NCBI RefSeq assembly: GCF_004135585.1
Contig: NZ_CP035501.1
Location: 186,001 to 250,000, forward strand
Reading direction: 5' to 3'
Source of the DNA: Sphingosinicella sp. BN140058
GTDB lineage: Bacteria; Pseudomonadota; Alphaproteobacteria; Sphingomonadales; Sphingomonadaceae
DNA length: 64,000 bases
Of the stretch, positions 26,726 through 60,671 are shown in pieces. A program made the translations under genes and the position numbers. Below the pieces are notes generated by a model. The model searched no databases and had not been told where the DNA came from. It worked only from the letters and a program-made list of their open reading frames with translations. The stretch's first letter is position 1. Every line of letters begins with the position of its first letter.

Positions 26726-27295
26726 TCAGCGCCGGTAGAGGAAAGGCACCATCCGGCCGATCAGGTGCCGGTGACCATCCAGATGATGCTTGAGAGCACC
26801 CGCCACGTGCAGCGTCAGCAACACGATCATGCTCCAGGCAAGAAGCTCGTGGGCTTCTTCGAACATGTCGCGAATGTCGTCCCTTCGTGCAATCGGCAGC
26901 GGCGCGATGTCGAACAGGCCGAAGAAACTGGTAACTCGTCCCCCACTCGAGGACAGCAGCCATCCGCTGAGCGGTATCGCGATCAGGGCGACGTAGAAGA
27001 GCCAGTGAATCACCGCGGCAAGGCCCGCTTCCCACCTTTTCATCACCGCATCGTAGGCGGGCGGCCGGTGGGACAGGCGCCAGATCAGGCGCAGTACGGT
27101 GAGGCCGAGGACGGTCATTCCGAGCGACTTGTGGAACCACATCATCCAAGATGTGGCGCCGCGCCCGAAGCTTTCGTGAAAGAAGCCTAGGAAGAGGTTG
27201 GCAAGGATCAGGGCGGCGATGGTCCAGTGCAGGAGGATCGCAACGCGCGTGTAGCGCGCCGTCTCCTGCCCGGCCATCGCCGCCGAGCTCGCCAT
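26726..27295 (-). CDS. cytochrome b561-family membrane protein
   Basis: A 189-residue four-helix di-haem b protein. Haem-ligand histidines are placed in ILLHWTIAALILANL (helix 1), MWFHKSLGMTVLGLT (helix 2), AVIHWLFYVALIAIP (helix 3) and LLTLHVAGALKHHLDG (helix 4). Bacterial b561 proteins move electrons between quinol and periplasmic acceptors or superoxide. Its ATG overlaps the sapC stop (TGATG), so the two are co-translated. Confidence 0.88.
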   Translation of the reverse strand: MASSAAMAGQETARYTRVAILLHWTIAALILANLFLGFFHESFGRGATSWMMWFHKSLGMTVLGLTVLRLIWRLSHRPPAYDAVMKRWEAGLAAVIHWLFYVALIAIPLSGWLLSSSGGRVTSFFGLFDIAPLPIARRDDIRDMFEEAHELLAWSMIVLLTLHVAGALKHHLDGHRHLIGRMVPFLYRR

Positions 27296-28086
27296 CAGAA
27301 GGCGGCGGCGCCGTTCGTTTCGACGGGGATCGCCGGGCCCTTGCCCTGCTGCACCTGGCGGCCGAATATTTCGCGCATCAAGGTCATCGAGAACAGATGC
27401 GCCATCACCAGCGGCAGGATACCGTTCTGGTTCATCTTGCGCAGTTCGTCACCGCGAAGCTCGCGCAGCTTCTCCTCGTTGACCATCTGGAAGCCGCGAT
27501 AGATGAACGGCTGCTCGACGCCCGCAGGCTGGATCGAGACTTCGCCCTCCATCAGCAGATCCATTTCCTTCAGCTCGGACACGAAGGCCGAAGTCCGCTG
27601 CGCCGACATTTCGAATTCTTCGCAGAATTTGAGGATGGCGTTGGTGGCTTCGCTGGGCTTGCCGTCGTCGAACAGCGCATGCCCCTCGTCGAACGGGCCG
27701 ACCAGATCGCTGGTCGGATCGAAGCAGAGCGAAAGCTCGTCGGCATCCGGGCGCAGGCGCGCCAGCATGAACGGATAGCGGCGGATATAGGCGGGAACGT
27801 AGATTTCGCCGCGGAGCGCACCATCGTCCTCGACGAACACGTTGACGCCTTCGTTGAGGCCCATCAGCGCCAGCGGCACCGGCGTCTCGCCGGAGGAGAA
27901 AGCGATCGGGAAGAAGCGCTGGCATGCCACGAACTCGTCGATCGTGATCGGCACCGCATGGGTGTTGACCAGGAACGGGGCCTTCTGCGCCGGACGGCTG
28001 CGGAAATTGCCATGCTGGTTGCTGGAAAGCGGCTCCAGGCCACCATAGAAAATCGGCAATGAATTGGCCGGCGGCTGAGTCGCCAT
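27295..28086 (-). CDS. SapC family protein
   Basis: A 263-residue cytoplasmic-looking protein starting MATQPPANSLPIFYGGLEPL, with a GGGAGAG ribosome site. SapC hallmarks are FLVNTHAVPITIDEFVACQR, IYVPAYIRRYPFMLAR, LCFDPTSDLVG, and a C-terminal LPLVMAHLFSMTLM. The name comes from a Campylobacter S-layer-associated protein; the biochemical role is unknown. It is coupled to cytochrome b561 by a TGATG overlap. A second, more divergent SapC lies at 53167 inside the halogenase cluster. Confidence 0.82.
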   Translation of the reverse strand: MATQPPANSLPIFYGGLEPLSSNQHGNFRSRPAQKAPFLVNTHAVPITIDEFVACQRFFPIAFSSGETPVPLALMGLNEGVNVFVEDDGALRGEIYVPAYIRRYPFMLARLRPDADELSLCFDPTSDLVGPFDEGHALFDDGKPSEATNAILKFCEEFEMSAQRTSAFVSELKEMDLLMEGEVSIQPAGVEQPFIYRGFQMVNEEKLRELRGDELRKMNQNGILPLVMAHLFSMTLMREIFGRQVQQGKGPAIPVETNGAAAF

Positions 28087-28303
28087 TCGATCTCTCCCAA
28101 GGATGTGAAAGCAGCCGCCCCCGCGACCACCCATTCGCCGCATCGTCTATGGCCGCGCCGCGCGTTAGGCAAGCCGAAGCCGCTGAGGCAGCGGATTATT
28201 TGACAAGGTGCGGGCCGTGCCGGAGGGTGGGCGCGACGCCATCTTCCCCTGGCGCGCGGAATTAATCGTCCGTTCAAGGCCGATGGGTGATTGTACCGAA
28301 CGA

Positions 28304-44531: not shown

Positions 44532-46145
44532 TCAGCCGATCATCAACTCCGCATTGGGCAGGATCGGCTGCAACGCCGATGCGCCGAAATCGACGAGCCC
44601 CTGGATCTCGACATCATCCTCCGTACCGCCATCGAGGAGGTCGAACCCTGGCCCGCCCAGAAGGACATCCTCGCCCGCACCGCCGAACAGAAGGTCGTTG
44701 CCGGCACCACCGATCAGGACATCGCTGCCGGTGCCGCCGTCGAGCGTGAGCAGAATGCCATTGGCGGCGAGGCCGGAGGCATCGACGACATCGTCCCCGC
44801 CGAGACCGTTGACGATCAGCCGATCCAATCCCGCTTCGAAGCCGGTGATGTTCACCTGTGTCGACAGGCCGAGCACGTTGACGCCGCCGGCATCACCGAA
44901 CACCAGCACGACATCGTCGCCGACGGTGGCGTTGATCACCACGGTATCCGCAGCGCCGTCGCCGCCGAGGCCGCCGGAACCGGCCAGGTTGACGTTGATT
45001 TCGGCCAGATCGGTTCCACTCATGTCGTTGATCGTGACCGTGTCGGCACCGCCCAGCGCGGCGACGTCGATCGCTTCGACGCCGTCGAGGTCCATGACGA
45101 TGTTGGCGACATTACGGGTGAAGCGCACGCGCCCGCCATTGGCCGAGACATCCATCAGCTCGGCGATGTTGGCGCCGTTCATCAGGAAGGTATCGAAGCC
45201 GTCCTGCCCCTCGATCACGTCGTTGCCGTCGCCCGGATCCCAGCGCGCGCCGTCGTCGCCCGCGCCGAGGAACATCACGTCGCTGCCTTGCTGGCCGTCG
45301 AGGAAATCGTCGCCTTCGCCGCCGAGCAGGATGTCGGCGCCATTCGAGCCCAGGATGGTGTCGTTGCCGGTGCCGCCGTCTACCGTGAGCTTGGTCAGCA
45401 CGGCAAGATTGCCGGTTGCGGAGAAGCTGTCATTGCCACCGTTCATGTTGACCACCAGATTCTCGGTCGTGCCGATGTCGAGCGAGAACGGCGCCGGATC
45501 GAGCCGGTCGAAGCGCACCCGGTTGCCGTTGGCGGTGGCCGTGAAGACCTCGGCGCCGTTGTTGCCGTTCATTTCCGCGGTGTCGATGCCGGCGCCCCCC
45601 TCCATCAGATCGGTGCCCTCGCCCGGATTCCAGATCATGCGGTCGTTGCCGGCTTCGCCGAACATCTGATCGTCGCCGGTGCCGCCGATCAAGGTGTCGT
45701 TGTCGGCGCCGCCGAACAGCAGGTCGTTGCCGCCCTTGCCCAGTAGGGTGTCGTTGCCGGCCTGGCCGAACAGCAGATCGGTGCCCGAGCCCGAGGTCAG
45801 GACGTCGTTGCCGGCGCCGCCGAAGAGATTTGCGGCGGGCAGCGCGCCGTTGCGCTCGTCGAGGCTGAGGACGTCGTTGCCGCCGAGCCCGAACATCTGG
45901 ATCAGCCGCGTATTGGCGACCGTGGGCACGCCGCCGACGACCGGGATCGCACCGCCGTTGATGATCACCGCGCCGCCCGCGTTGCGGCCGACCACGACAT
46001 TGTTGTCGAGCCCGTCCGCGGTGGTGCTCAGCACCCCGGTCGCCGGGATGAACGTGGCGGCGACGGATGCGATGGTGAAGTCTTGCGGGTCGTCATCCTT
46101 CCTGAGCTGCAGCTTCGCCTGGTTGTGCACGATGTCGTTCTTCAT
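44532..46145 (-). CDS. RTX (haemolysin-type) calcium-binding repeat protein
   Basis: A 537-residue protein starting MKNDIVHNQAKLQL after GGGAAGG. It contains at least three clusters of the Ca2+-binding nonapeptide GGxGxDxUx: residues ~90-160 (FGGAGNDVLTSGSG, GKGGNDLLFGGADND), ~250-305 (DGGTGNDTILGSNGADILLG), and the C-terminal ~465-515 (GGAGNDLLFGGAGEDVLLGG). Clusters alternate with beta-rich segments that are copies of one another (NGNRVRFDRLDPAPFSLDI and NGGRVRFTRNVANIVMDLD). There is no protease or lipase domain. It is likely a secreted type-I substrate, but no exporter genes are nearby. Confidence 0.88.
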   Translation of the reverse strand: MKNDIVHNQAKLQLRKDDDPQDFTIASVAATFIPATGVLSTTADGLDNNVVVGRNAGGAVIINGGAIPVVGGVPTVANTRLIQMFGLGGNDVLSLDERNGALPAANLFGGAGNDVLTSGSGTDLLFGQAGNDTLLGKGGNDLLFGGADNDTLIGGTGDDQMFGEAGNDRMIWNPGEGTDLMEGGAGIDTAEMNGNNGAEVFTATANGNRVRFDRLDPAPFSLDIGTTENLVVNMNGGNDSFSATGNLAVLTKLTVDGGTGNDTILGSNGADILLGGEGDDFLDGQQGSDVMFLGAGDDGARWDPGDGNDVIEGQDGFDTFLMNGANIAELMDVSANGGRVRFTRNVANIVMDLDGVEAIDVAALGGADTVTINDMSGTDLAEINVNLAGSGGLGGDGAADTVVINATVGDDVVLVFGDAGGVNVLGLSTQVNITGFEAGLDRLIVNGLGGDDVVDASGLAANGILLTLDGGTGSDVLIGGAGNDLLFGGAGEDVLLGGPGFDLLDGGTEDDVEIQGLVDFGASALQPILPNAELMIG

Positions 46146-48334: not shown

Positions 48335-48340
48335 TTGACA
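48335..48340 (+). promoter_or_regulatory. candidate -35 box (TTGACA) of the receptor-halogenase operon
   Basis: A consensus TTGACA lies 77 bp before the receptor ATG. A -10 element is poorly formed; 17-base spacing would put it at about 48358, inside the palindrome. Between 47964 and 48416 there is no other supported gene. Confidence 0.4.
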
Positions 48341-48359: not shown

Positions 48360-48371
48360 GTGAACGTTCAC
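48360..48371 (+). promoter_or_regulatory. candidate LacI-family operator, perfect 12-bp palindrome
   Basis: GTGAACGTTCAC is a perfect palindrome with the central CG typical of LacI-family operators. It is placed at the expected -10/+1 of the TonB receptor promoter, 46 bp before the ATG. The likely binder is the LacI-type protein encoded at the end of the same cluster (56481). Confidence 0.55.
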
Positions 48372-48416
48372 AACGGCTGCGCAAGACAGCGCTGTCAGAC
48401 AAACAGGGGAGGATCT

Positions 48417-51400
48417 ATGCGCAGCTTCAGGGCTCGCTCGCTTTCGAAATTCGTCATCAGTGCCTCGGCGCTCGCCATCGCCGCGATGCCGGGCATCGCC
48501 GCCGCCCAGGACACCAACGCCACGATGGGCGCGCCGGGCGACTCCGAAATCCCCGATCAGGCCGCTGATGCCGCAACGGCCGGCGAGGACGAGATCGTCG
48601 TCACCGGCATTCGCGCCAGTTTGCGCGAAGCGGTCGACATCAAGCGCAACGCGCAAGGCGTGGTCGACGCGATCTCGGCGGAAGACATCGGCAAGTTCCC
48701 CGACACCAATCTTGCAGAGTCCCTGCAGCGTATCACCGGCGTTTCGATCGACCGCTCGAACGGCGAAGGGTCGTTCGTCACCGTCCGCGGCTTCGGCCCG
48801 GAATATAATCTCGTGCTGCTCAACGGCCGTCAGATGCCGACCGCGTCGCTTGGCGACGGCGCCAGCGCGCCGGCCTCGCGCTCGTTCGACTTCGCCAACC
48901 TCGCCTCGGAAGGCATCGCCGCCGTCGAAGTCTACAAGACCGGGCGCGCCGCCGTACCCTCGGGCGGGATCGGCTCCAGCATCAACATCCGCACGCCGCG
49001 GGCTCTCGATCGTCCCGGCATGCGCGGAAGCATCGCCGTCAAGGGCGTGATGGACACCTCGCGCAACGAGGGCAATCCGATCACCCCCGAAATATCGGGC
49101 GTGTTCTCCGACACCTTCGCCGACGATCGCTTCGGCATCGTCTTCTCGGGCGCCTACCAGAAGCGCAAGGCGAGCGTGAACTCGGCCAGCGCCGGCTTCC
49201 GCGACGGCTTCGTCGGCAGCGAGAATGATTGGGGCACCCTGCCCCAGCCCGGACAGCCCGGCTCGCAGAACATCACCAACCGTCCCGGCGCGAACGACGT
49301 CTACGAAATCCCGCAGAGCGCCGCTTACGATCTCATCGACATCAAGCGCGAGCGGATCAACGGGCAGGTCGCGCTGCAATTCCGGCCGATCCAGTCGATC
49401 ACGGCAACGGTAGACTACACCTACTCGCGCAACACCGTCGAAGTGCGCGACAGCAGCGTCGGCATCTGGTTCAACTTCGGCGATACGTCGAGCGCATGGA
49501 CCGACGGCCCCAACGCCGGGCCGATCTTCTACACCGAGCGCTTCGGACCGGGTAAGGACCTGTCGTACAGCGGCGCGCTCACCGCGAACCGTACCGAGAA
49601 CAAGTCGCTCGGCGGTAACCTGACCTGGGAAGCGCCCGGCAACGTCACGGTGTCGCTCGATGCGCACCATTCGACTGCCGAATCGAAGCCGACGAACAAG
49701 TACGGGACCAGCACTTCGGTCGGTAACGCGATCTTCGGCGTGCAGAGCCAGACGATCAATTTCGAGAAGGACCTGCCGGTTCTTTCGGTGACCATGTATC
49801 CGGGCATCGATCCGCTGAACGCTGCCCTGATCACGCCGACCGGCAACTCGTTCCGGAACGCCTATTTCAAGGACGAGATCGACCAGGTTCAGCTGAAGGG
49901 TCGCTACGAACATGACGGCGACTTCCTCGACAGCATCGACGTCGGCTTCTCCTACGTCGACAACAAGGTGCGCTCCGCCTACGGCTTTATCCAGAACGAC
50001 ACCTGGGGCGGCATCGGCCCGGCGTCGGACATTCCCGATGATCTGTTCGAACTCGTGACGCTGCCCGACAAGTTCGACGGCGTCCCGGGCGCAGGCACGT
50101 CCGGGATGATCCCGTCCTTCTACGTGTTCAACTTCGAGCAGATGGCCGATCTTCTCGAGAGCAAGTATCAGGTGTGCAGCGATCCGCAGACCGGCTCCGC
50201 GCAGGACGGCACCTGCCTTGCCGACTTCACCGTCGATCGGCGCATCCGCGAGAAGACGATTTCTCCCTACATCCAGTTCAACGCAGGCTTCGATGCGTTC
50301 AGCCGCCGGTCGCACATCATCGCCGGCCTTCGCTACGATCAGACCACGGTGGATTCCCGCGCGCTGGTGCCGATTCCGATCGGAACGCGCTGGGTTTCCG
50401 CGAACGAGTTCGGCATCATCTATTCGGGTGAGAGCGATTTCACCCGCTTCAAGGGCCATTACAAGAATTGGCTGCCGGCGATCGACTTCGACATCGAGCC
50501 GCTTCAGAACGTGAAGCTGCGCGCGTCCTACAGCCACACGATCACCCGCGCGGATTATGCCAGCCTGCAAGGCGGCCGTACCATCGACTCGAACCCGCGC
50601 ATCGGTGGTGGCACCGGAAGCCAGGGCAATCCCGGCCTGATCCCGTACAAGTCGAAGAATATCGATTTCTCGGCGGAATGGTATTACGGGCGGGAGAGCT
50701 ACGTCTCCGTCGGGTTCTTCAACAAGAAGGTGAAGAACTTCATCGGCCAGACGCAGATCGACACGCCTGCTTTCGGCCTGCTCAACCCTGCCGACGGCCC
50801 CCGCTACCGCGCTGCCACCGCGGCCCTGGGCACCACCGACGCAGTCCAGATCCGCGACTATATCCTACGCAACTATCCGGACTCCTCGGATGTGACCGGC
50901 TCGACCGTGATCAACGGGGTCACCTATCTCACCGGCGACATCTTCGGCATCGCCGGGGACGATCCGTTCAACTTCCAGATCAGCCAACCCTTCAACAGCG
51001 ATCAGACTGCGAAGATTCACGGCTGGGAGTTCGCGGTTCAGCACCAGTTCTGGGATACCGGGTTCGGCGCGATCCTGAACTACACCATCGTCAAGGGCGA
51101 TGCGAACTATGACAACGAAGTGCATCCGGACATCGGCCAGTTCGCGATCACCGGCCTGAGCGACAGTGCCAACGCCGTCCTGTTCTATGACAAGGGAGGT
51201 CTGCAGGCGCGTGTCGCGTACAATTGGCGCGATGAATTCTACGCCGGCGGGACGTTCGACCCGACCTATGTCGAGGCCTATGGCCAGGTCGACGCAAGCG
51301 CCAGCTACGAGTTCATCCCGGGGCTGACCGCCTTCGTCGAAGCGATCAACCTGACGGGCGAGCGGCGCCGCGGTCACCGCCGTTCGGACAATTTCGTCAC

Positions 51401-51455
51401 CTTCTCGCAGCCCGGCTACGCCCGCTACTCGGCGGGACTGCGCTTCACCTTCTGA
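48417..51455 (+). CDS. TonB-dependent outer-membrane receptor (large)
   Basis: A 1012-residue receptor starting MRSFRARSLSKFVISASALA after a GGGGAGGA site, with a signal peptide ending at AAAQ. The TonB box is DEIVVTG near residue 55. The plug follows (LREAVDIKRNAQGVVDAISA, DIGKFPDTNLAESLQRITGV, VTVRGFGPEYNLVLLNGRQM). The long 22-strand barrel closes with the C-terminal YSAGLRFTF ending in Phe. This size and plug type are typical of carbohydrate-uptake TonB receptors in Sphingomonas, Caulobacter and Xanthomonas. It heads the cluster of halogenase, SapC and cupin genes. Confidence 0.95.
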   Translation: MRSFRARSLSKFVISASALAIAAMPGIAAAQDTNATMGAPGDSEIPDQAADAATAGEDEIVVTGIRASLREAVDIKRNAQGVVDAISAEDIGKFPDTNLAESLQRITGVSIDRSNGEGSFVTVRGFGPEYNLVLLNGRQMPTASLGDGASAPASRSFDFANLASEGIAAVEVYKTGRAAVPSGGIGSSINIRTPRALDRPGMRGSIAVKGVMDTSRNEGNPITPEISGVFSDTFADDRFGIVFSGAYQKRKASVNSASAGFRDGFVGSENDWGTLPQPGQPGSQNITNRPGANDVYEIPQSAAYDLIDIKRERINGQVALQFRPIQSITATVDYTYSRNTVEVRDSSVGIWFNFGDTSSAWTDGPNAGPIFYTERFGPGKDLSYSGALTANRTENKSLGGNLTWEAPGNVTVSLDAHHSTAESKPTNKYGTSTSVGNAIFGVQSQTINFEKDLPVLSVTMYPGIDPLNAALITPTGNSFRNAYFKDEIDQVQLKGRYEHDGDFLDSIDVGFSYVDNKVRSAYGFIQNDTWGGIGPASDIPDDLFELVTLPDKFDGVPGAGTSGMIPSFYVFNFEQMADLLESKYQVCSDPQTGSAQDGTCLADFTVDRRIREKTISPYIQFNAGFDAFSRRSHIIAGLRYDQTTVDSRALVPIPIGTRWVSANEFGIIYSGESDFTRFKGHYKNWLPAIDFDIEPLQNVKLRASYSHTITRADYASLQGGRTIDSNPRIGGGTGSQGNPGLIPYKSKNIDFSAEWYYGRESYVSVGFFNKKVKNFIGQTQIDTPAFGLLNPADGPRYRAATAALGTTDAVQIRDYILRNYPDSSDVTGSTVINGVTYLTGDIFGIAGDDPFNFQISQPFNSDQTAKIHGWEFAVQHQFWDTGFGAILNYTIVKGDANYDNEVHPDIGQFAITGLSDSANAVLFYDKGGLQARVAYNWRDEFYAGGTFDPTYVEAYGQVDASASYEFIPGLTAFVEAINLTGERRRGHRRSDNFVTFSQPGYARYSAGLRFTF

Positions 51456-51467
51456 TCGTCCATGCAC

Positions 51468-51499
51468 GGGAGGCGTTCCTGATCGAACGCCTTCCGTCC
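51468..51499 (+). terminator. stem-loop between receptor and first halogenase gene
   Basis: AGGCGTTC (51471-51478) and GAACGCCT (51485-51492) pair across a 6-base loop, with extra G/C pairing outside a one-base bulge. It starts about 13 bases after the receptor stop. There is no U-run; probably an attenuator or processing site that lowers expression of the downstream genes. Confidence 0.45.
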
Positions 51500-51564
51500 C
51501 CAGGGTGGCTTTTCCTGCCTGGCGCGGGCAGATTGCCGGCACAAGGAAACTTCGGACGCCTTCG

Positions 51565-53166
51565 GTGCACAAGCGAGACACACAAGACCAGCCTTTGCCG
51601 AACGAAGCGGCCGTCACGCGCGTCGTGGTCGTGGGCGGCGGGACGGCAGGCTGGCTCGCGGCATGCCTGGTCGCGGCGCGGGCGGAACGGGCCCCAGCCG
51701 GTCGGCTCCAGGTCACCCTGATCGAATCCCCCGATGTGCCGACGATCGGGGTCGGCGAAGGCACCTGGCCGACGATGCGTCGAACGCTTCAGCGCATCGG
51801 CATCGCCGAGGCCGAATTCCTGCTGTGCTGCGACGCGGCGTTCAAGCAGGGCTCTCGCTTCGACGGCTGGGTCTCGGGCGAACCCGACGACCAGTATTTT
51901 CATCCCTTCACGCCGCCGGTCGAGGCCGATCCCGATGCTGTGGTACAGGCTTGGCAGGCGCTGGACGCGCGCAGCTTCGCCGAGACAGTGAGCCCGCAGG
52001 CGCGCGCTTGCGGTCTCAATCTTGCACCCCGGCAACGGACCATGGCCGACTTCGCCGGTGCCCTGAATTACGCTTATCACCTCGACGCCGGGAAGCTCGT
52101 CGACCTGCTCAGAAGCCACGCGACGCAGCGCCTGGGCGTTCGCCATCTGCGCGACCATGTCGTCTCCGTCGATGCCGCTTCGAACGGCGACATTGCGGGG
52201 GTTCGCACGCGATCGACGGGCATTGTGGAAGGCGACCTCTTCCTTGATTGCAGCGGACATTCGGCCCTGCTGCTGGGCGAACATTATGGTGTTCCGTTCG
52301 TCGATCGCAGCGACGTGCTGTTCAACGATCGCGCGCTTGCCGTGCAGGTGCCGGTCGCGCCGGAGAGCCCGATCGCATCCCAGACATGCGCGACGGCCCA
52401 TGCCGCCGGATGGATCTGGGACATCGGCCTGCCCACCCGCCGCGGCGTCGGATGCGTCTATGCGTCGGCGCATGCCAGCGACGATGCGGCGGCAGCAGCC
52501 CTCGAAGCCTATCTGCGCAAGACTGCGCCCGATGTCTCGGTCGATCCCGGAGCGTTCCGCCGGCTGAGCTTCCGCTCCGGCCACCGCCAGCGCTTCTGGG
52601 AACGGAATTGTCTTGCGATCGGCCTCTCCGCCGGATTTCTCGAGCCGCTCGAGGCTTCGGCGATCGTGCTCATCGAACTCTCGCTCGACGCCTTGCTCGA
52701 CAACTTCCCGGTGACGCGGGACGTCATGGATATCCACGCGCGCCGGTTCAACGCCCTGTTCCTGTACCGCTGGGATCGCATCGTCGAGTTCCTGAAGCTC
52801 CACTATGTGCTGAGCCGGCGTTCGGAGCCTTATTGGCGTGCCCACCGGGATCCGGCCTCGATCCCAGCCCGCCTGTCGGAGCTGTTGCAGATCTGGCGGC
52901 ACCAGGCGCCGTCGCGTGCCGATCTGCCGATGGCCGACGAGATCTTTCCGGCGGCCAGCTACCAATATGTGCTCTACGGCATGGGATTTCCGGCACCCGC
53001 GCATGCACCGGTGAAGGCGGACGCGGCCGGCACCGTGGAGCCGCTGCTGCGCCAGGCGGAACAGCGTGGCCGGGCGCTCTTCGCCAGCCTGCCGACCAAT
53101 CGTGCCTATCTCGATGCCTTGCGCGCTCAGGCGACTTCCTCCCCTCCTTTGGTGACGACCTGCTGA
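51565..53166 (+). CDS. flavin-dependent tryptophan-halogenase-like protein, variant motif
   Basis: About 533 residues from the GTG at VHKRDTQDQP (start uncertain; another GTG is at 51505). FAD-binding GGGTAGW lies at 24-30 and IGVGEGTWPT at 61-70; the active-site Lys is K94 in AAFKQGSRFDGW. The halogenase signature WxWxIP reads WIWDIGLP at 283-290, displaced by one residue from the consensus, while the Glu of GFLEPLEAS is kept. Family enzymes make hypohalous acid at FADH2 and halogenate indoles or other aromatics. In TonB-receptor loci their natural substrate is unknown. Confidence 0.82.
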   Translation: MHKRDTQDQPLPNEAAVTRVVVVGGGTAGWLAACLVAARAERAPAGRLQVTLIESPDVPTIGVGEGTWPTMRRTLQRIGIAEAEFLLCCDAAFKQGSRFDGWVSGEPDDQYFHPFTPPVEADPDAVVQAWQALDARSFAETVSPQARACGLNLAPRQRTMADFAGALNYAYHLDAGKLVDLLRSHATQRLGVRHLRDHVVSVDAASNGDIAGVRTRSTGIVEGDLFLDCSGHSALLLGEHYGVPFVDRSDVLFNDRALAVQVPVAPESPIASQTCATAHAAGWIWDIGLPTRRGVGCVYASAHASDDAAAAALEAYLRKTAPDVSVDPGAFRRLSFRSGHRQRFWERNCLAIGLSAGFLEPLEASAIVLIELSLDALLDNFPVTRDVMDIHARRFNALFLYRWDRIVEFLKLHYVLSRRSEPYWRAHRDPASIPARLSELLQIWRHQAPSRADLPMADEIFPAASYQYVLYGMGFPAPAHAPVKADAAGTVEPLLRQAEQRGRALFASLPTNRAYLDALRAQATSSPPLVTTC

Positions 53167-53883
53167 ATGTCCGAACACGCTATCCTCGACACCGCGGCGC
53201 ACCGCGATCTTAGAATCCGCACCGATCGGAGCCCGGAACTGGGGGATGCCATGATGTGCTGCATCACCGTTCCGGCCGAGTTCCGGCAGGTTCAGAACGA
53301 ATATGCGATCCTGTTCCGGCTAAACCTGGAGCGGGATGCTTTCACCGCTCTGGCCATGTTCGGCTTCGAGGCGGGCGAAAACCTCTATCTCGAAAATGGA
53401 CGCTGGGACGCGCGCTACATTCCTCTCGCAGCCGACATCCAGCCGTTCCTGATCGGTGGGGCGATCGACGGGACCGGTCCCCGACAGGTGCATATCGATA
53501 TGGCAAGCCCGCGCATCGCCGGCGAGGAAGGCATGCGCCTGTTCGACGAATTCGGGCAGCCCACCCCCTATCTTGACGGCATCACCGAGAAATTGGGGGC
53601 GCTGGATGAAGGCTATCAGGGATCCGCCGCGTTCCTCGATGCGCTGAAGCGCCACGACCTGCTCGAGCCGATGTCTCTGGAGGTCACTCTCGACAACGGA
53701 AGCACGAACCGGCTGGTTGGTTTCCACGTCATCGACGAGGACCGCCTGCGGGCGCTCGATGCGCAGTCCCTGTCCAGGCTTCACGCCGACGGCCATCTGA
53801 TGCCGATCTTCATGGCAGTCGCGTCGCTTGCCAATCTGGGTGCGCTGGTCGCACGCAAGAACCGGCGCCTGGCCTATGGCTGA
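53167..53883 (+). CDS. SapC-family protein (divergent)
   Basis: A 238-residue protein starting directly after the halogenase stop. SapC-like traits are CITVPAEFRQVQNEYAILFR, NLYLENGRWDARYIPL, FLIGGAIDG, and AGEEGMRLFDEFGQPTPYLDG, ending in a basic ARKNRRLAYG tail. It resembles the SapC at 27295 in layout but not closely in sequence. It overlaps the next gene by 8 bp. The role is unknown; such proteins recur with halogenase-like proteins beside TonB receptors. Confidence 0.8.
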   Translation: MSEHAILDTAAHRDLRIRTDRSPELGDAMMCCITVPAEFRQVQNEYAILFRLNLERDAFTALAMFGFEAGENLYLENGRWDARYIPLAADIQPFLIGGAIDGTGPRQVHIDMASPRIAGEEGMRLFDEFGQPTPYLDGITEKLGALDEGYQGSAAFLDALKRHDLLEPMSLEVTLDNGSTNRLVGFHVIDEDRLRALDAQSLSRLHADGHLMPIFMAVASLANLGALVARKNRRLAYG

Positions 53884-54907
53884 CGGCGAAGGCGTTCCGT
53901 TGGCGATGCTGCCCCCCATCCCGGAGATCACGGTCACCGATGCGGGGGAGCTCGACGCCGCCCTCCGCAGCGCCAGGGCGCCGTTCGTAGTGCGCGGCCT
54001 AGTGTCCGACTGGCCGCTCGTCCAGGCTGGCCGCAATTCCGCAAAGGAGGCGCGCAACTATCTGGTGGAGCGGCATCGAGACCTGCCGTTCGTCGTCTCG
54101 ATCGGCGCTCCCGACGCTGGCGGGCGGATGTTCTACGACGATGCCATGGCGATGAACTTTCGCAGCGTCAGTGCACGGCTGCCGGATGTGTTCGACCGCA
54201 TCGACCGGGGCGAGCGCAGCAGCGACACGCCGTCACTCTACCTTGCCTCGATCGACATCGGCCAGTTCTTCGATGGGCTGCACGAAGCGAACCACGTCGA
54301 TCTCGGCGACCGCTCCTGTCTCGCCTCCATCTGGATGGGCACGCCGACGCGGATTGCCGCGCACAACGACTTCCCGGACAATCTCGCCTGTGTCGCCGTC
54401 GGACGCCGGCGCTTCACGCTGTTCCCGCCGGATCAGTTCCGCAACCTCTATCTTGGCCCGGTCGACAATACGCCCGCCGGACGCGCCGTCAGCATGGTCG
54501 ATTTCCATGCCCCCGATTACACGGCGCATCCGCGCTTTCGACAGGCCCTCGAACAGGCGCAAGTGGCCGAGCTCGAAGCCGGCGACGCGCTCTACATTCC
54601 CTCGATGTGGTGGCACCATGTCGAAGGGCTCGATCCGTTCAACGTGCTGGTCAATTATTGGTGGCGGGACACGCCCCGCTGGCTGGGCCAGCCGCAGGAG
54701 GCGCTCAATCACGCGATGATGGCGATCCGCGAGCTTCCAGCCCACGAAAAGAAGCATTGGCGCGACCTGTTCGACCACTACGTCTTCGACAATGACGAGG
54801 CGGTCGTCGCGCACATCCCGCCGGCGGCGCGCTCGGTTCTCGCGCCTCTCACGCCCGAAAGCGCCGGCCGTATCCGCGCCTTCCTGTTGCGAGCCCTCAA
54901 CCGATGA
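53876..54907 (+). CDS. cupin-8/JmjC-like Fe(II)/2-oxoglutarate oxygenase-type protein
   Basis: A 343-residue double-stranded beta-helix protein. Iron ligands are visible as H163-x-D165 in IAAHNDFPDN and a distal His in MWWHHVEG (247 or 248). FTLFPPDQFRNLYLGPVD and GDALYIPSMWWHHV are the cupin-8 signatures shared with hydroxylases of the FIH/JmjC group. The ATG at MADGEGVPLAML overlaps the SapC stop by 8 bp; its own stop overlaps the second halogenase (ATGA). It might hydroxylate a protein or small molecule; no substrate is evident. Confidence 0.85.
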   Translation: MADGEGVPLAMLPPIPEITVTDAGELDAALRSARAPFVVRGLVSDWPLVQAGRNSAKEARNYLVERHRDLPFVVSIGAPDAGGRMFYDDAMAMNFRSVSARLPDVFDRIDRGERSSDTPSLYLASIDIGQFFDGLHEANHVDLGDRSCLASIWMGTPTRIAAHNDFPDNLACVAVGRRRFTLFPPDQFRNLYLGPVDNTPAGRAVSMVDFHAPDYTAHPRFRQALEQAQVAELEAGDALYIPSMWWHHVEGLDPFNVLVNYWWRDTPRWLGQPQEALNHAMMAIRELPAHEKKHWRDLFDHYVFDNDEAVVAHIPPAARSVLAPLTPESAGRIRAFLLRALNR

Positions 54908-56418
54908 CCATTGCCAGCTCCGCCGAACCCCGACTTCGCCGGATCGTCGTCGCCGGCGGCGGCACCGCCGGCTGGATGGCCGCTGCCGCGATCGCGCGAA
55001 CCATGGGCCGCGCCGTCGAGCTCACCCTCGTCGAATCCGATGCGATCGGCACGATCGGGGTCGGCGAGTCGACCATCCCGCCGCTCGTCAATTACAACCG
55101 GTTGCTCGGCATCAACGAAGCCGAGTTCATGCGGGCCACCCAGGCGACCTTCAAGCTCGGCATCGCCTTCGAAGGCTGGAAGGAAGTCGGGCACAGCTAC
55201 TTTCACTCCTTCGGGATCACCGGAAAGGATCATTGGTCGGCCGGCTTCCAGCATTTCTGGCTGGCTGGACGCGAACGGGGTCACGACGCGCCCTATGACG
55301 AATATTGCCTGGAGCTGAAGGCCGCGATGCAGGGCAAGTTCGCGCACCTGCCCGACAATGCGATGAACTATGCCTACCAACTCGATTCCACGCTCTACGC
55401 CAGGTTCCTGCGCGCCATGGCCGAAGCCGACGGCGCGAAGCGGATCGAAGGCAAGATCGCGCGGGTGGAGCTCAATGGCGAGAGCGGCCACGTCGCCGCA
55501 CTCGTGCTGGAGAATGGCAGCCGGATCGAAGGCGACCTGTTCCTCGATTGCACCGGCTTCAGGGCCCTGCTGATCGAAGACGCTCTGCATGCCGGCCACG
55601 ACGACTGGACCCATTATCTGCCGTGCGACTCCGCCATCGCGATCCAGACGGAAAGCGTTGGGCCGGCCTTTCCCTACACCAAGGCGATCGCCCACGATGC
55701 CGGCTGGCGGTGGCGCATTCCGCTGCAGCATCGGACCGGTAACGGCCTCGTTTATTGCAGCCGCTACCTCGATCGCGATGCAGCGCTGGAGCGGCTGCTC
55801 GGGACCGTCGAAGGCCAGACGCTGACCAAACCCAATTTCCTCAAATTCGGCGCCGGTGCACGGCGCCGGCAATGGCATCGCAACGTCGTCGCGATCGGGC
55901 TGTCGGGCGGGTTCATGGAGCCGCTGGAATCGACCAGCATCCACCTTATTCAACGCGCGGTGCTGCGGCTGATCCGGATGATGCCGCTGCGCGAGATCAG
56001 CGATCGCGATATTGCCGAGTTCAACGAGCAGCAGCATGCCGACATGCTGCAGATCCGGGATTTCCTGATTTTGCACTACAAGGCGACGGAGCGCCGCGAC
56101 AGCGCCTTCTGGCGCTATTGCGGCGACATGGAGATACCGGACACACTGGTGCAGAAGATCGAGCTGTTCCGCGAGACCGGCCGCGTGTTCCGCAAGAACG
56201 AGGAATTGTTCGCCGAGAACAGCTGGGTGCAGGTGATGATGGGCCAAGGCATCATGCCCCATGCCTACCATCCGATAGCCGAGAAACTGAACGACGACGA
56301 GCTTGCGCGGCTGCTCGAGACGCTCCGCGAGCAGGTCTCGAAAACGGTCGCCGGCCTGCCCGCGCATGCCGCCTATGTCGAACGTTACTGCGGCGCGGCG
56401 CGCGCGGCCGCGGCCTGA
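54904..56418 (+). CDS. flavin-dependent tryptophan-halogenase-like protein, canonical motifs
   Basis: A 504-residue halogenase starting MTIASSAEPRLRRIVVAGGG. FAD motif GGGTAGW at 18-24, IGVGESTIPP at 51-60, active-site lysine K84 in ATFKLGIAFEGW, and a fully conserved WRWRIP at 268-273, with GGFMEPLESTS downstream. Thus all recognised catalytic elements are present, unlike in the first halogenase of the cluster. A separate flavin reductase would be needed to supply FADH2; none is in the window. It is coupled to the cupin gene by ATGA. Confidence 0.9.
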   Translation: MTIASSAEPRLRRIVVAGGGTAGWMAAAAIARTMGRAVELTLVESDAIGTIGVGESTIPPLVNYNRLLGINEAEFMRATQATFKLGIAFEGWKEVGHSYFHSFGITGKDHWSAGFQHFWLAGRERGHDAPYDEYCLELKAAMQGKFAHLPDNAMNYAYQLDSTLYARFLRAMAEADGAKRIEGKIARVELNGESGHVAALVLENGSRIEGDLFLDCTGFRALLIEDALHAGHDDWTHYLPCDSAIAIQTESVGPAFPYTKAIAHDAGWRWRIPLQHRTGNGLVYCSRYLDRDAALERLLGTVEGQTLTKPNFLKFGAGARRRQWHRNVVAIGLSGGFMEPLESTSIHLIQRAVLRLIRMMPLREISDRDIAEFNEQQHADMLQIRDFLILHYKATERRDSAFWRYCGDMEIPDTLVQKIELFRETGRVFRKNEELFAENSWVQVMMGQGIMPHAYHPIAEKLNDDELARLLETLREQVSKTVAGLPAHAAYVERYCGAARAAAA

Positions 56419-56480
56419 TCTTCACTCCGGCGTCGCGGGGGCGGCAACGGCTTACTTCCCATGGGGGCGATTTGAACGAC

Positions 56481-57554
56481 ATGACGCAGGAAGAATCGGG
56501 GCCGCGCCGTCCCCGTGCCGTCACCATCAAGCACGTCGCCGCAGAGGCCGGCGTTTCGCTGCAGACGGTGTCGCGCGTCATCAACGGCGGCCCCAACGTC
56601 CGCGACGCGATCAAGGAGCGAGTTCGGGCTGCGATCGACAAATTGGGATATGTGCCGAGCCTCGCCGCGCGCCGCATGGGGGGCACCCGCTCCTACGTCC
56701 TGCTCGCGCTCAACGATCGCGACCGCACGATCGAGGGCTGGCGCTCCGGCGACGGCACCGATTGGGTCGATCAGATGATGCTCGGCGGCATGCTCGAATG
56801 CGCCAGGCACGGCTATCGCATGATCGTCGAACTGGTCGATACGCACAGCGCCCATGTCGAGCGCGAGCTCGGTGCCGCGCTTGCCGCGCTCCACCCGGAC
56901 GGCGTGATCCTGACGCCGCCGCACGGCGACAATCCGATCATCACCGGAATGCTCGCCGGTCGGCACATCCCGTTCGCGCGGATCGGCTCGACCGGCCTCG
57001 GCGCGGGCTTCGCAATTTCGATGGACGACGCCCGCGCGGCCGGCGCGGCGACCGAGCATCTCGTCTCGCTCGGCCATGTCCGCATCGGCTTCATCACCGG
57101 CAGCGACGAATATGCGCTGAGCGGCGCCCGCCTGCTCGGCTATCGCGGCGCGATGCAGGCCGCAGGGCTCGCCGAGGATCCGGCGCTGGTCGCGCGCGGC
57201 GACTTCACGTTCAGCTCGGGTGCCGAGGCGACCCGCAGCCTGCTCGCACTCGCCGATCCGCCGACCGCGATCATCGCCAGCAGCGACCAGATGTCGCTCG
57301 CCGCGCTCGAAGTCGCGCGCGCGCTCGGCCTGGATGTGCCGGGTGACGTTTCGATCGTGAGCTTCGACGATACTCCGATCGTCAAGTTCAGCGTGCCGCC
57401 GCTGACCGCCATCCGCCAGCCCATCGCCCCGATGGCGGCCCGCGCCGCCGCCCTGCTGATCCAGACCGCCAATGGCGAGCCCGCGTCGGAGGAGGCGAAC
57501 GTGCTCCCGTTCGAGCTGATCGTCCGCGGCTCGACGGCACCGCCCCGCACCTGA
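56481..57554 (+). CDS. LacI-family transcriptional regulator
   Basis: A 357-residue repressor. The N-terminal HTH is VTIKHVAAEAGVSLQTVSRVING followed by the hinge LGYVPSLAARRMGG. The periplasmic-binding-protein-like sensor has HPDGVILTPPH, EHLVSLGHVRIGFITG, PTAIIASSDQMSLAALEVAR and VSIVSFDDTPI. The ATG is taken, though a TTG three codons upstream has better spacing to GGGGGCG. It closes the receptor-halogenase cluster, 62 bp after the second halogenase, and probably represses it in response to an imported sugar. Confidence 0.92.
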   Translation: MTQEESGPRRPRAVTIKHVAAEAGVSLQTVSRVINGGPNVRDAIKERVRAAIDKLGYVPSLAARRMGGTRSYVLLALNDRDRTIEGWRSGDGTDWVDQMMLGGMLECARHGYRMIVELVDTHSAHVERELGAALAALHPDGVILTPPHGDNPIITGMLAGRHIPFARIGSTGLGAGFAISMDDARAAGAATEHLVSLGHVRIGFITGSDEYALSGARLLGYRGAMQAAGLAEDPALVARGDFTFSSGAEATRSLLALADPPTAIIASSDQMSLAALEVARALGLDVPGDVSIVSFDDTPIVKFSVPPLTAIRQPIAPMAARAAALLIQTANGEPASEEANVLPFELIVRGSTAPPRT

Positions 57555-57888: not shown

Positions 57889-58755
57889 TCAGCGATGAGG
57901 GCGCGCGGCCACTCCGATCCCGACCAAAGCGAGGATTGCGCCGGCCAGCGTTGGCAAGGCAAATTCGGCCTCTCCGATCGCGATCTCCAGGAGCGCGGTA
58001 AGCGGCGCCATCAGGTACAACAAGAGCGCCGCGCGGGTGGCACCGAGCCGGTCGAGCGCCACCATCCAGAAGGCATAGCCACAGACACTCGAACCCAGCG
58101 CCAGGTAGAGTATTGCGGTGCGCGCCGTGCGATCGGCAGCCATGGCTGTGATACCGGCCGGAGCCCACGGCAGCAGCCAAAGCCCGCCGGCGGCCATGAC
58201 CGCGGCCGCGCTCGTCATCGGCCCAAGGCGCGCAATCAGCGGCCGCTGCAGGACGAAGAAGAAACCCGAGCAGGCGGCGGCAGCGAGGATCAGCAGGATG
58301 CCGGCGGTGGATCCGCCCCCCTCGCCCGCCGCGCCCATGATTGCTATGCCGGACGCGGCTACGACGCCGCCGAGGAGCAAGCGTCTGTGCAGACGCGCGC
58401 CCTCCAGCCACCAGGCACCGAGCGCTGCAAAGACAGCTTGGGTCGAGATCACGAAGCTCGCGAGCCCAGCGCCGACCCCCTGCTCGCCGGCACCGAGCAG
58501 ACCATTGTAAATGGCGATGCCGAGCAGCCCGCACACGGCGATCCGCGGCACGTCCCTCCATTTCGGGCGCTCACGCGCGCCGAACAGGATCCAGCCGACC
58601 GAAACCAGGCCGGCGAACAGAAATCGCGCCGCGGCGAGGGCGGCCGGTTCGGTGTGCCGCACGCCCGCGCGGATCGCCAGGAACGCGCCCGCCCACAGCA
58701 GCAGGGTCATGACGCCGGCGCCATAGGCACCAAGTGTCGGCGCGCGCGGGGTCAC
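57889..58755 (-). CDS. EamA-family (DMT) exporter
   Basis: A 288-residue ten-helix drug/metabolite transporter with two EamA repeats: LGAYGAGVMTLLLWAGAFLA opening the first, STAGILLILAAAACSGFFFV opening the second, and VCGYAFWMVALDRLGATRAA near the end. The GTG start overlaps the TonB-receptor stop (GTGA). The longer frame upstream is inside the receptor gene. Paired with a receptor and a LysR regulator, it may export a metallophore or metabolite. Confidence 0.88.
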   Translation of the reverse strand: MTPRAPTLGAYGAGVMTLLLWAGAFLAIRAGVRHTEPAALAAARFLFAGLVSVGWILFGARERPKWRDVPRIAVCGLLGIAIYNGLLGAGEQGVGAGLASFVISTQAVFAALGAWWLEGARLHRRLLLGGVVAASGIAIMGAAGEGGGSTAGILLILAAAACSGFFFVLQRPLIARLGPMTSAAAVMAAGGLWLLPWAPAGITAMAADRTARTAILYLALGSSVCGYAFWMVALDRLGATRAALLLYLMAPLTALLEIAIGEAEFALPTLAGAILALVGIGVAARPHR

Positions 58756-60671
58756 AGATCGACGATCAGGCGTGCGAACAGCTGACGCGGCGCGGCCGGA
58801 CGGAACGCATTGCTGCCCACCACATCCCAACCATAGCCGTTGGTCGCGTTCAGCAGATGCAGCCGCAGCGTTGCCGGCATCGCGCCAAGCGCGAAACGAT
58901 AGCGCAGCCCCAGATCGACAGTGGTGACCGGAGCCAAGCGGACCCGGTTCAAGCGATCGGCAAACTCCGGGCCGGAGTGTGTCGCGACGATGTCGAACGA
59001 CCAGGGCGAGGCGCTGGCTGGCCGCCAGTCGAGGCTCGCCTGCAGCAGGTGCGACGGGGTTCCGATCGGACGCGCGCCGATCTGTCCGGAAAGGCGTTCG
59101 TCGCCCGAGAGGCTGGCGTCCAGCAGCACGGCTCCGGCGACCAGCGTCAGGCCTTTCCCCGGCGATGCGGTCAGCGATGCCTCGACACCGCGATGGCGCA
59201 CGCTGCCGAGGCGGCGGAAGCGATTGGACGCATCCAGGCCGTCATAGGGTTTCGCAATCGAGAACAGGCCGGCAACGAGGTCGAAGCCCGGAGCCGCGTG
59301 CCAGCGAAATCCGCCATCCACCTGGCGCGTGCGGATCGCGGGCGGCGCCTCATCGCGATTGACGGCCGTCTCGGGCGCGATCTGGGCCTCCTCGAGACCG
59401 CGGCTGGTGCCGGCATAGACGGCGAGGCCCGAGGCGATTTCAACCGTGGCCGCAGCGTTGAACAACCACAATCGGTCGTGCGCGACGATCGGTGCCGCTC
59501 CCGGCGGCGAAACGCGCTTGCGATAATCGGTATGCTGCAGGCCGAGATCGAGTTCGCCGCGCCCCGGCAGCATCGCGCGATAGCGGACGCCGTACGTCCG
59601 TTGCTCGACCTCGTCCCGCGTCCGGGTGGTGAACGCGAAGTCCGGCTTCGCGACCGCCTCAGTGCTGCCGAAGGGTACGTCCGGCAGCGCCCGCCGGTCG
59701 CCCCCGCCGTAAACACGCTGCTGCCGGCGCCCGCGTGCGGCGATGGTTAGAAGGTGCTGCGCGCCCGCGGCGTCGAAACGGCGCGACAGGCGCAGCTCGC
59801 CGCTGGTCGATGCACTCATCCGCGGCGGATCCGCCGTGACGGCACGGGCGCTCCAGGTTCCGAGCGGAGCGGCCTGCTGGAACAGGCTGAAGCTGCGCTC
59901 CGACCGATCCGCAGAGCGGAACAGACCGCCGCGGAGGAGAAAGGCACCGGCGTCAGCGTCGGCGATCAGGCCGTAAGTCAACCTTTCGCGGTCGGCGGCT
60001 GCCCAGGATTGACCGATGCCGCGGTCGCGGCGCAGGCGCGGCGGCAAGGACAGACCGTCGCCGAGCAGGATCGGAGCGACCTGATCGTCGTCGATGCGGA
60101 TGCGGCTCCAAAAGGGCCGCAGAATGAGCCCGGGCAGCGGGCGACCCTGCCCTACGGCCGCGAGCGACACCACCTTGCCGGTACGGCCATCCGCACTGCG
60201 ATTGGCATAGAGGCCGATACCGGCGGCGATGCCGAGCCGTTCGCCGACCAGCGGCAGGGATGCATCGGCCTCGAGCCGAGCACCCCCGAACGTATCGAGC
60301 ACCGGCATGAGCGTGAGCGCCGGCTGCGCACCTGGTTCGCGCAGCCGGTAGTCGGCAATTCCGCTCGGGGCCGGAAACAGATAGCCGAGCGCGGAAGGCC
60401 CGACATGGATGCGGTTGCCGGCGACGAGACGCCCAGTGAACTCGGCCTGGCGATCGAAATAGAGGCCCTCGATCCGGATATTTCCGGCGACCGTGGGGGA
60501 GAAGCCGCGAACATCGGCCGGGCTGTAGATGCCCAGGCTCTCCGCGCCGACGGTCGAGCCGAACGCGTCTTTCGCCTCGGTCGTCGCATTGTCGGAGACC
60601 GGCTGGGCCGGTGCTGGGCTGACGATGAAGCCGACAGCAGCGGCGGCGAGGATGCTTGATCGGTATCGCAT
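58752..60671 (-). CDS. TonB-dependent receptor with short plug
   Basis: A 639-residue outer-membrane protein with signal peptide (MRYRSSILAAAAVGFIVSPA). The N-terminal plug is brief: STVGAESLGIYSPADVRGFSP, then NIRIEGLYFDRQ, with no clear TonB box. The barrel follows with the usual alternating strands and a C-terminal QLFARLIVDL. This compact plug (RGFSP...AGNIRIEGLYFD) marks a subgroup of receptors that I recognise only by pattern. It is cotranscribed with the EamA exporter and divergent from a LysR regulator over about 60 bp, suggesting joint control. Confidence 0.85.
   Translation of the reverse strand: MRYRSSILAAAAVGFIVSPAPAQPVSDNATTEAKDAFGSTVGAESLGIYSPADVRGFSPTVAGNIRIEGLYFDRQAEFTGRLVAGNRIHVGPSALGYLFPAPSGIADYRLREPGAQPALTLMPVLDTFGGARLEADASLPLVGERLGIAAGIGLYANRSADGRTGKVVSLAAVGQGRPLPGLILRPFWSRIRIDDDQVAPILLGDGLSLPPRLRRDRGIGQSWAAADRERLTYGLIADADAGAFLLRGGLFRSADRSERSFSLFQQAAPLGTWSARAVTADPPRMSASTSGELRLSRRFDAAGAQHLLTIAARGRRQQRVYGGGDRRALPDVPFGSTEAVAKPDFAFTTRTRDEVEQRTYGVRYRAMLPGRGELDLGLQHTDYRKRVSPPGAAPIVAHDRLWLFNAAATVEIASGLAVYAGTSRGLEEAQIAPETAVNRDEAPPAIRTRQVDGGFRWHAAPGFDLVAGLFSIAKPYDGLDASNRFRRLGSVRHRGVEASLTASPGKGLTLVAGAVLLDASLSGDERLSGQIGARPIGTPSHLLQASLDWRPASASPWSFDIVATHSGPEFADRLNRVRLAPVTTVDLGLRYRFALGAMPATLRLHLLNATNGYGWDVVGSNAFRPAAPRQLFARLIVDL

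Follow-up and report, generated by a model that had tools for sequence, protein, structure and literature searches.

In the genome of Sphingosinicella sp. BN140058, a gene for a TonB-dependent receptor (TBDR) is followed by genes for two halogenase-family flavoproteins (Hal2 and Hal1), a SapC-family protein and a Cupin_8 protein, and by a gene for a LacI-family regulator. The six genes lie in a stretch of 64,000 nucleotides (contig NZ_CP035501.1, positions 186,001 to 250,000), here called the window, and coordinates refer to it unless another locus is named. What are two halogenase homologues, an oxygenase-like cupin and SapC, for which we know of no function, doing in one unit with an outer-membrane receptor? 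We found that the receptors accompanied by SapC and cupin form a single cluster on the receptor tree, with a conserved gene order around them. Our tentative answer, to which we give somewhat less than an even chance, is that the unit is an induced operon for the uptake of a β-glucan-type oligosaccharide that carries its own protein-modifying cassette, the receptor being oxidised before export.

Conservation of the unit

The earlier note on this stretch, made from the sequence alone, had described the six genes, their order and strand, and three tight junctions, all of which were confirmed by family scores and by the sequence. Each product scores above its family threshold in profile searches (Table 1), and all six genes are on the + strand. 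The Hal2 stop codon TGA directly abuts the SapC ATG (53164–53169), the SapC and cupin genes overlap by 8 bp (cupin ATG at 53876), and an ATGA is common to cupin and Hal1 (54904). A family search of the unit found no biosynthetic gene among its genes. The receptor start, by contrast, had to be moved. The GTG previously taken as the start, at 48360, opens the perfect palindrome GTGAACGTTCAC, and because of the ribosome-binding site and the position of this operator we prefer ATG 48417, behind AGGGGAGGATCT, as the likelier start.

A genome scan with the window cupin gave 370 confirmed stretches, the best 80 of which were annotated by homology; having been selected by cupin similarity, they permit no statement on cupins in general. 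Receptor, SapC and cupin genes occur in the same order in 79 of the 80 loci, and the remaining one (L147) holds an orphan cupin. Both halogenases are present in 67; Hal2 is missing from 11, which have only Hal1, and both are missing from one (L123), so that the halogenase, SapC and cupin trio of the earlier note is not complete at every locus. In 76 loci a gene of LacI type was identified. Sphingomonadales-type names are carried by 79, and one (L173) is labelled as a gammaproteobacterial metagenome-assembled genome. Chance does not account for this conserved order. What the earlier note anticipated, a fixed co-occurrence with a TBDR of carbohydrate type, therefore stands for these cupin-selected relatives, and it extends to another class, as described below for SapC.

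The receptor cluster and its partners

The genome of the window encodes 29 receptors above the TIGR01782 cut-off, and one more that is split over two rows. A tree was built of 97 receptors: SapC and cupin accompany 36 of them (one in four of the 80 named loci was taken), 36 are halogenase-only, 2 are SapC-only, and the 23 others all come from the window's own genome. On this tree, one change suffices for the label "SapC plus cupin" (shuffled mean 29.2; 0 of 500 shuffles as low), and the halogenase-only label requires 11. Thus, the SapC-cupin receptors form a single cluster. The tree is a quick build with long-branch warnings; the branch uniting the SapC-cupin receptors with the receptor of a Hal2-SapC fusion locus has a support of 99, and the group's own branch has 14.

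Receptor and Hal1 distances are correlated (r = 0.669, 41 pairs), a value reached by none of 2000 within-genome partner permutations. With 43 within-genome pairs alone, r is 0.336 against a permuted mean of 0.053, and 23 of 2000 permutations are as high. Linked duplication could be an alternative source of this correlation.

The halogenases

Flavin-dependent halogenases are marked by the flavin motif GGGxxGW, by WxWxIP and by the catalytic lysine context FKxG..F..W. Each of these motifs occurs in 78 of 78 Hal1 sequences, and EPxE in 76 of 78; the window Hal1 reads GGGTAGW, WRWRIP and FKLGIAFEGW. It matches 6y1w (Xcc4156) with 672.7 bits (E = 3.1e-201) and 6frl, which we take to be the BrvH structure, with 448.9 bits. 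The WRWRIP motif noted earlier thus belongs to Hal1, and Hal2 has WIWDIGLP instead. WxWxIP is found in 0 of 67 Hal2 sequences, 66 of which have WxWxI..P or WxWxI.L; the lysine context is present in 66 of 67, the remaining one reading LKQG. On these motifs we class Hal2 as a halogenase-like flavoprotein only; the solved chains closest to it are 9ltb and 2pyx. QhpG acts on a tryptophan within a protein. Against its family Hal2 and Hal1 score 32.5 and 32.9 bits, below the curated cut-off of 240, and neither is assigned to it.

Passages of two papers bear on the substrates of the closest studied relatives of Hal1. In vitro, a group of Xanthomonas halogenases that includes Xcc4156 brominates indole derivatives (PMC7336383), and BrvH brominates indole with low activity (PMC5945002). 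Free tryptophan is not a substrate, and the natural substrates are given as not known, with peptides suggested (PMC5945002, PMC7336383, in the same passages).

Halogenase genes are often near such receptors. Among 31 loci of relatives that were chosen because they hold halogenase genes, 26 have a receptor within 3.5 kb. The window's own genome has 16 near-full-length halogenase-family matches and one fragment of 20.6 bits; leaving out the fragment, 9 of its 11 loci with full halogenase-family genes have a receptor (6 of a set of 8, together with the window unit, L020 and L027). At another locus of this genome (L022, G000:C1:3576000-3595000), four halogenase-family genes stand side by side, three on the + and one on the − strand, adjoining one receptor.

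The cupin and DUF6445

The best match of the window cupin in the PDB is FIH (E = 1.3e-18), and FIH and other JmjC protein hydroxylases are its closest solved relatives. The iron triad HxD...H is kept and is invariant in 13 of 13 cupin sequences. Unlike FIH, in which Lys-214 is the 2-oxoglutarate residue, all 13 cupins have Arg at the equivalent position. We therefore describe it as a candidate FIH-like 2-oxoglutarate/Fe(II) oxygenase and do not file it as FIH. An orphan FIH-like cupin gene was seen in Sphingomonas sp. Leaf339 (L147, 8840–9871), without receptor or SapC; the end of that locus looks transposase-like by eye.

A second probable oxygenase is DUF6445. It has HxD...H...R and a double-stranded β-helix, as in the fold of 2-oxoglutarate/Fe(II) prolyl and lysyl hydroxylases, with PasI and PolD among the tied fold matches. 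A sequence search of solved structures with DUF6445 gave none below E = 0.5, and its identity to OGFOD1/Tpa1, PHD2 and the bacterial EF-Tu prolyl hydroxylase is 10–16%. The DUF6445 gene of the window's own genome lies outside the window. DUF6445 is a likely oxygenase partner of the cassette.

SapC

The AlphaFold2 model of SapC has a pLDDT (predicted local distance difference test) of 93.9; a search of solved structures with SapC found no match. Five residues are invariant across 51 SapC sequences. In four database proteins, that of the query locus included, a Hal2-type halogenase is fused to a shortened SapC, and these four fusions may come from one event. With the full SapC of the window as region query, no fusion to another partner was found at E up to 0.001. 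Only 7 of 76 Hal2/SapC junctions are in frame, and a paired Hal2-SapC alignment was thus not feasible.

In a phylum-wide sample, SapC occurs in at least 111 of 299 genomes, and 40 loci, most of them high in the match list, were examined. Five are receptor units, four of which, from another class, read TBDR-Hal-SapC-cupin-Hal-DUF6445. Nine of the other 35 are near protein-export genes: five (L224, L226, L235, L238 and L239) have SecA-like, M50/HlyD and HlyD-type genes within about 6.6 kb of SapC, and in four (L223, L228, L234 and L236) SapC adjoins a ShlB-type two-partner secretion transporter and a giant protein. The remaining 26 show neither arrangement (L249 has a 64-bit ShlB match 4 kb off). 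These neighbours were scored with six query proteins, with Pfam applied to L224, L236 and L238 only. Because of the export genes near SapC at this minority of loci, we read SapC as a possible partner of surface proteins that are exported.

Two further observations concern SapC. The five loci with SecA-like, M50/HlyD and HlyD-type genes look like an uncharacterised export system. The window itself has a second, standalone SapC gene (27295–28143, − strand) with a b561-like gene and a DEAD-box helicase gene as neighbours, an arrangement similar to that in many relatives.

Operator, probable regulon and ligand

Allowing one mismatch at most, 63 of 79 related receptors have the operator core TGAACGTTCA upstream; mononucleotide shuffling gives an expectation of 0.6, and none of 79 windows within genes contains it. 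The window's own genome has three perfect 12-mers of GTGAACGTTCAC; with at most one mismatch there are 26 copies, against 1 for the pattern read backwards. The perfect copies stand before the window unit, before a receptor gene at L032, where DUF6445 and LacI genes and, by eye, an MFS (major facilitator superfamily)-like gene are also present, and before a glycoside hydrolase family 16 (GH16) gene at L175. There, the operator is 12 bp ahead of ATG 9121 of the GH16 glucanase, a start chosen here (in the list of open frames it starts earlier, at TTG 9064, ahead of the operator), and a divergent DUF6445 gene starts about 300 bp away.

Around the 80 units, GH3 genes occur at 59, GH16 genes at 30 and either at 70; a Pfam check of one member per locus confirmed 59 of 59 and 30 of 30. 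An MFS-type gene is near 67 of the 80 (one representative confirmed). At the window locus the receptor and LacI are present, and GH16 belongs to the probable regulon but is remote: no GH16 match was found in the window, and GH3, GH16, MFS and DUF6445 references together gave a sole match there, to the LacI frame (56 bits); a long reference frame probably produced this spurious match. Because of the GH3 and GH16 genes around the units and the operator before the GH16 gene, a β-glucan oligosaccharide is the likeliest ligand of the receptor. Other SapC receptors have GH9 (L067), GH3 and α-galactosidase (L027), GH3 (L259), or gluconolactonase-like, epimerase and sugar-kinase genes (L258) as neighbours, and the ligand seems to vary between SapC receptors while the cassette stays.

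Proposed mechanism and alternatives

From the gene linkage, the fusions, the motif and fold resemblances and the operator, all of them observed, we infer the binding, the chemistry and the ligand in the following scheme. LacI would repress the unit from GTGAACGTTCAC and would also control the remote GH16 glucanase gene and perhaps the divergent DUF6445 gene, near which the operator is placed. The receptor would import an oligosaccharide. In the cytoplasm, SapC would hold or present the unfolded receptor, Hal2 would dock on SapC, and Hal2, Hal1 and the FIH-like cupin would halogenate or hydroxylate chosen receptor side chains before the membrane is crossed. A candidate cupin site is Asn-131 in the plug (numbered from ATG 48417), which is present in 36 of 36 SapC-cupin receptors, versus 8% of the halogenase-only receptors and 26% of the others. 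Six of seven added distant SapC receptors have it too; the seventh, L258, is truncated, with a gap at this position and no cupin seen beside it. Asn-131 is the only attractive candidate target of the cupin. A more specific claim, that SapC is an adaptor handing the receptor precursor to two halogenases and one or two 2-oxoglutarate hydroxylases, with the result that bacteria brominate or hydroxylate their own sugar receptors, is possible, but we rather doubt it.

Not all observations favour modification of the receptor. We compared 95 SapC-cupin receptors (both halogenases 72, Hal1 only 17, Hal2 only 3, none 3; contig ends truncate L090 and L086, and L087 and L123 are one species), and no column of W, Y or H tracks the presence of halogenases convincingly. 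The Asn-131 pattern follows the clade as well as the cassette and may be mere ancestry. The earlier note held that a trio mostly apart from TonB receptors would refute its proposal, and the outcome is mixed: the selected cupins are nearly always with a TBDR, but the SapC family is mostly apart. A set centred on sphingomonad genomes comprises 62 SapC genes, 60 from their neighbourhoods and two from the window; 43 of them have no receptor recognised in the stretch, 16 are in receptor-SapC-cupin units and 3 are beside a receptor and halogenase without cupin (one, L094, is a fusion). In the wider set, 35 of 40 are outside receptor units, among them L246, with a weak receptor-like match (40 bits) directly adjacent, L223, L245 and L251, with weak or distant ones, and L240 and L241, with a halogenase-family gene 3.5–4 kb off. 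Outside these counts, four loci chosen from genomes with several SapC genes read, from frames by eye, TBDR-Hal2-SapC (L258), Hal-SapC (L259), TBDR-SapC-cupin-Hal1 (L260) and SapC only (L261). Nevertheless, the suggestion of the earlier note that the trio may modify the receptor is the one we also favour, on circumstantial support: the one receptor cluster, the Hal2-SapC fusions, the protein-hydroxylase-like oxygenases and the export genes near SapC.

Could the halogenases act on something else? They might halogenate a free indole-like small molecule (a signal, defence compound or carrier) that the receptor imports or senses, with SapC and cupin finishing the product. The closeness of Hal1 to Xcc4156, the indole bromination by BrvH (passages of PMC7336383 and PMC5945002) and the PasI and PolD matches of DUF6445 are consistent with this. 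However, the inactivity toward free tryptophan and low activity on indole in the same passages, the lack of a biosynthetic gene in the unit, and a GH3/GH16 context with a LacI regulator, which suggest a sugar, make it unlikely. That the cassette modifies another protein, such as SapC itself, a co-regulated secreted enzyme (GH16) or parts of the TonB system, we consider decidedly unlikely: the four SapC-Hal2 fusions, the five invariant SapC residues and the operator common to the GH16 gene argue for it, but the operon linkage is to the receptor in 79 of 80 loci, versus GH3 or GH16 near in 70 of 80, and SapC also occurs in genomes without a halogenase match (e.g. G006).

An action on the imported ligand, for example on aromatic groups of plant or algal glycans, is quite improbable. 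Halogenases accept aromatic rings, and the frequency of halogenase genes near such receptors (the 26 of 31 loci above) fits, but the same cassette occurs with GH3/GH16 at window-type loci and with GH9, α-galactosidase or sugar kinase elsewhere, with no obvious common aromatic ligand. The imported aromatic glycoside proposed in the earlier note has thus lost ground to the β-glucans that neighbourhood and operator indicate. Just as improbable, in our judgement, is physical clustering alone, in which the enzymes do not act on the receptor and merely share its locus, being of use in the same circumstances. The modular make-up of the locus, of which halogenase-only, Hal1-only and halogenase-free versions exist, would suit it; overlapping reading frames, an order conserved across classes, the Hal2-SapC fusions, and a partner fidelity beyond within-genome permutation argue against it.

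Relation to known systems

The unit resembles the carbohydrate utilisation loci with a TonB receptor (CUT loci) of Xanthomonas and Caulobacter in its TIGR01782-type receptor, its sugar-type regulator and the glycoside hydrolase genes and MFS carrier near it in relatives; unlike them, the window's receptor operon carries Hal2-SapC-cupin-Hal1. Other work on Xanthomonas reportedly noted such genes. Specialists probably know of a link between halogenases and carbohydrate receptors; it was not found in the open-licence literature searched. Among the matches listed there we saw no explanation of the gene set beside TonB receptors and no description of the regulon, of the links of DUF6445 to the cassette and of SapC to export, or of the Hal2-SapC fusions. 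In the main text of PMC1790865, a term search found none of halogenase, SapC, cupin or Pass1, and a term search of PMC8269204 likewise gave nothing. Besides the likeness of Hal1 to BrvH and Xcc4156, BrvH also adjoins a second halogenase gene (a passage of PMC5945002); term searches found no TonB in PMC5945002 and PMC7336383 and no SapC in PMC5945002.

SapC and the BrvH/Xcc4156-type halogenases are both tied here to one receptor clade, and the analysis gives a probable ligand class and regulon and adds DUF6445 as a likely oxygenase partner. If true, the scheme would provide a function for both SapC and the orphan brominating halogenases.

Other features of the window

Table 1. Features of the receptor unit (window coordinates)
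Feature	Position	Strand	Remarks
TTGACA hexamer	48335–48340		by eye only
LacI-type operator, palindrome GTGAACGTTCAC	48360–48371	none	upstream of unit
TonB-dependent receptor, TIGR01782 (TonB-Xanth-Caul)	48417–51455	+	614.5 bits, cut-off 310; plug and barrel
Hal2, divergent Trp_halogenase-family flavoprotein	51505–53166	+	PF04820, 386 bits; start uncertain, perhaps GTG 51613
SapC-family protein	53167–53883	+	PF07277, 213.9 bits, gathering cut-off 28.9
Cupin_8 protein, candidate FIH-like 2-oxoglutarate/Fe(II) oxygenase	53876–54907	+	PF13621, 230.1 bits
Hal1, flavin halogenase with WRWRIP, close to Xcc4156	54904–56418	+	PF04820, 614.2 bits
LacI-family regulator, probable owner of operator	56481–57554	+	PF00356, 63.4 bits, and PF13377

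Just upstream of the unit are genes for an acidic protein with GGxGxD repeats, RTX-like by eye (44532–46145, − strand), and for a sulfatase (PF00884; 46293–47963, + strand). A short TonB-receptor-like protein with a Pfam barrel match and no plug match is encoded at 58752–60671 on the − strand.

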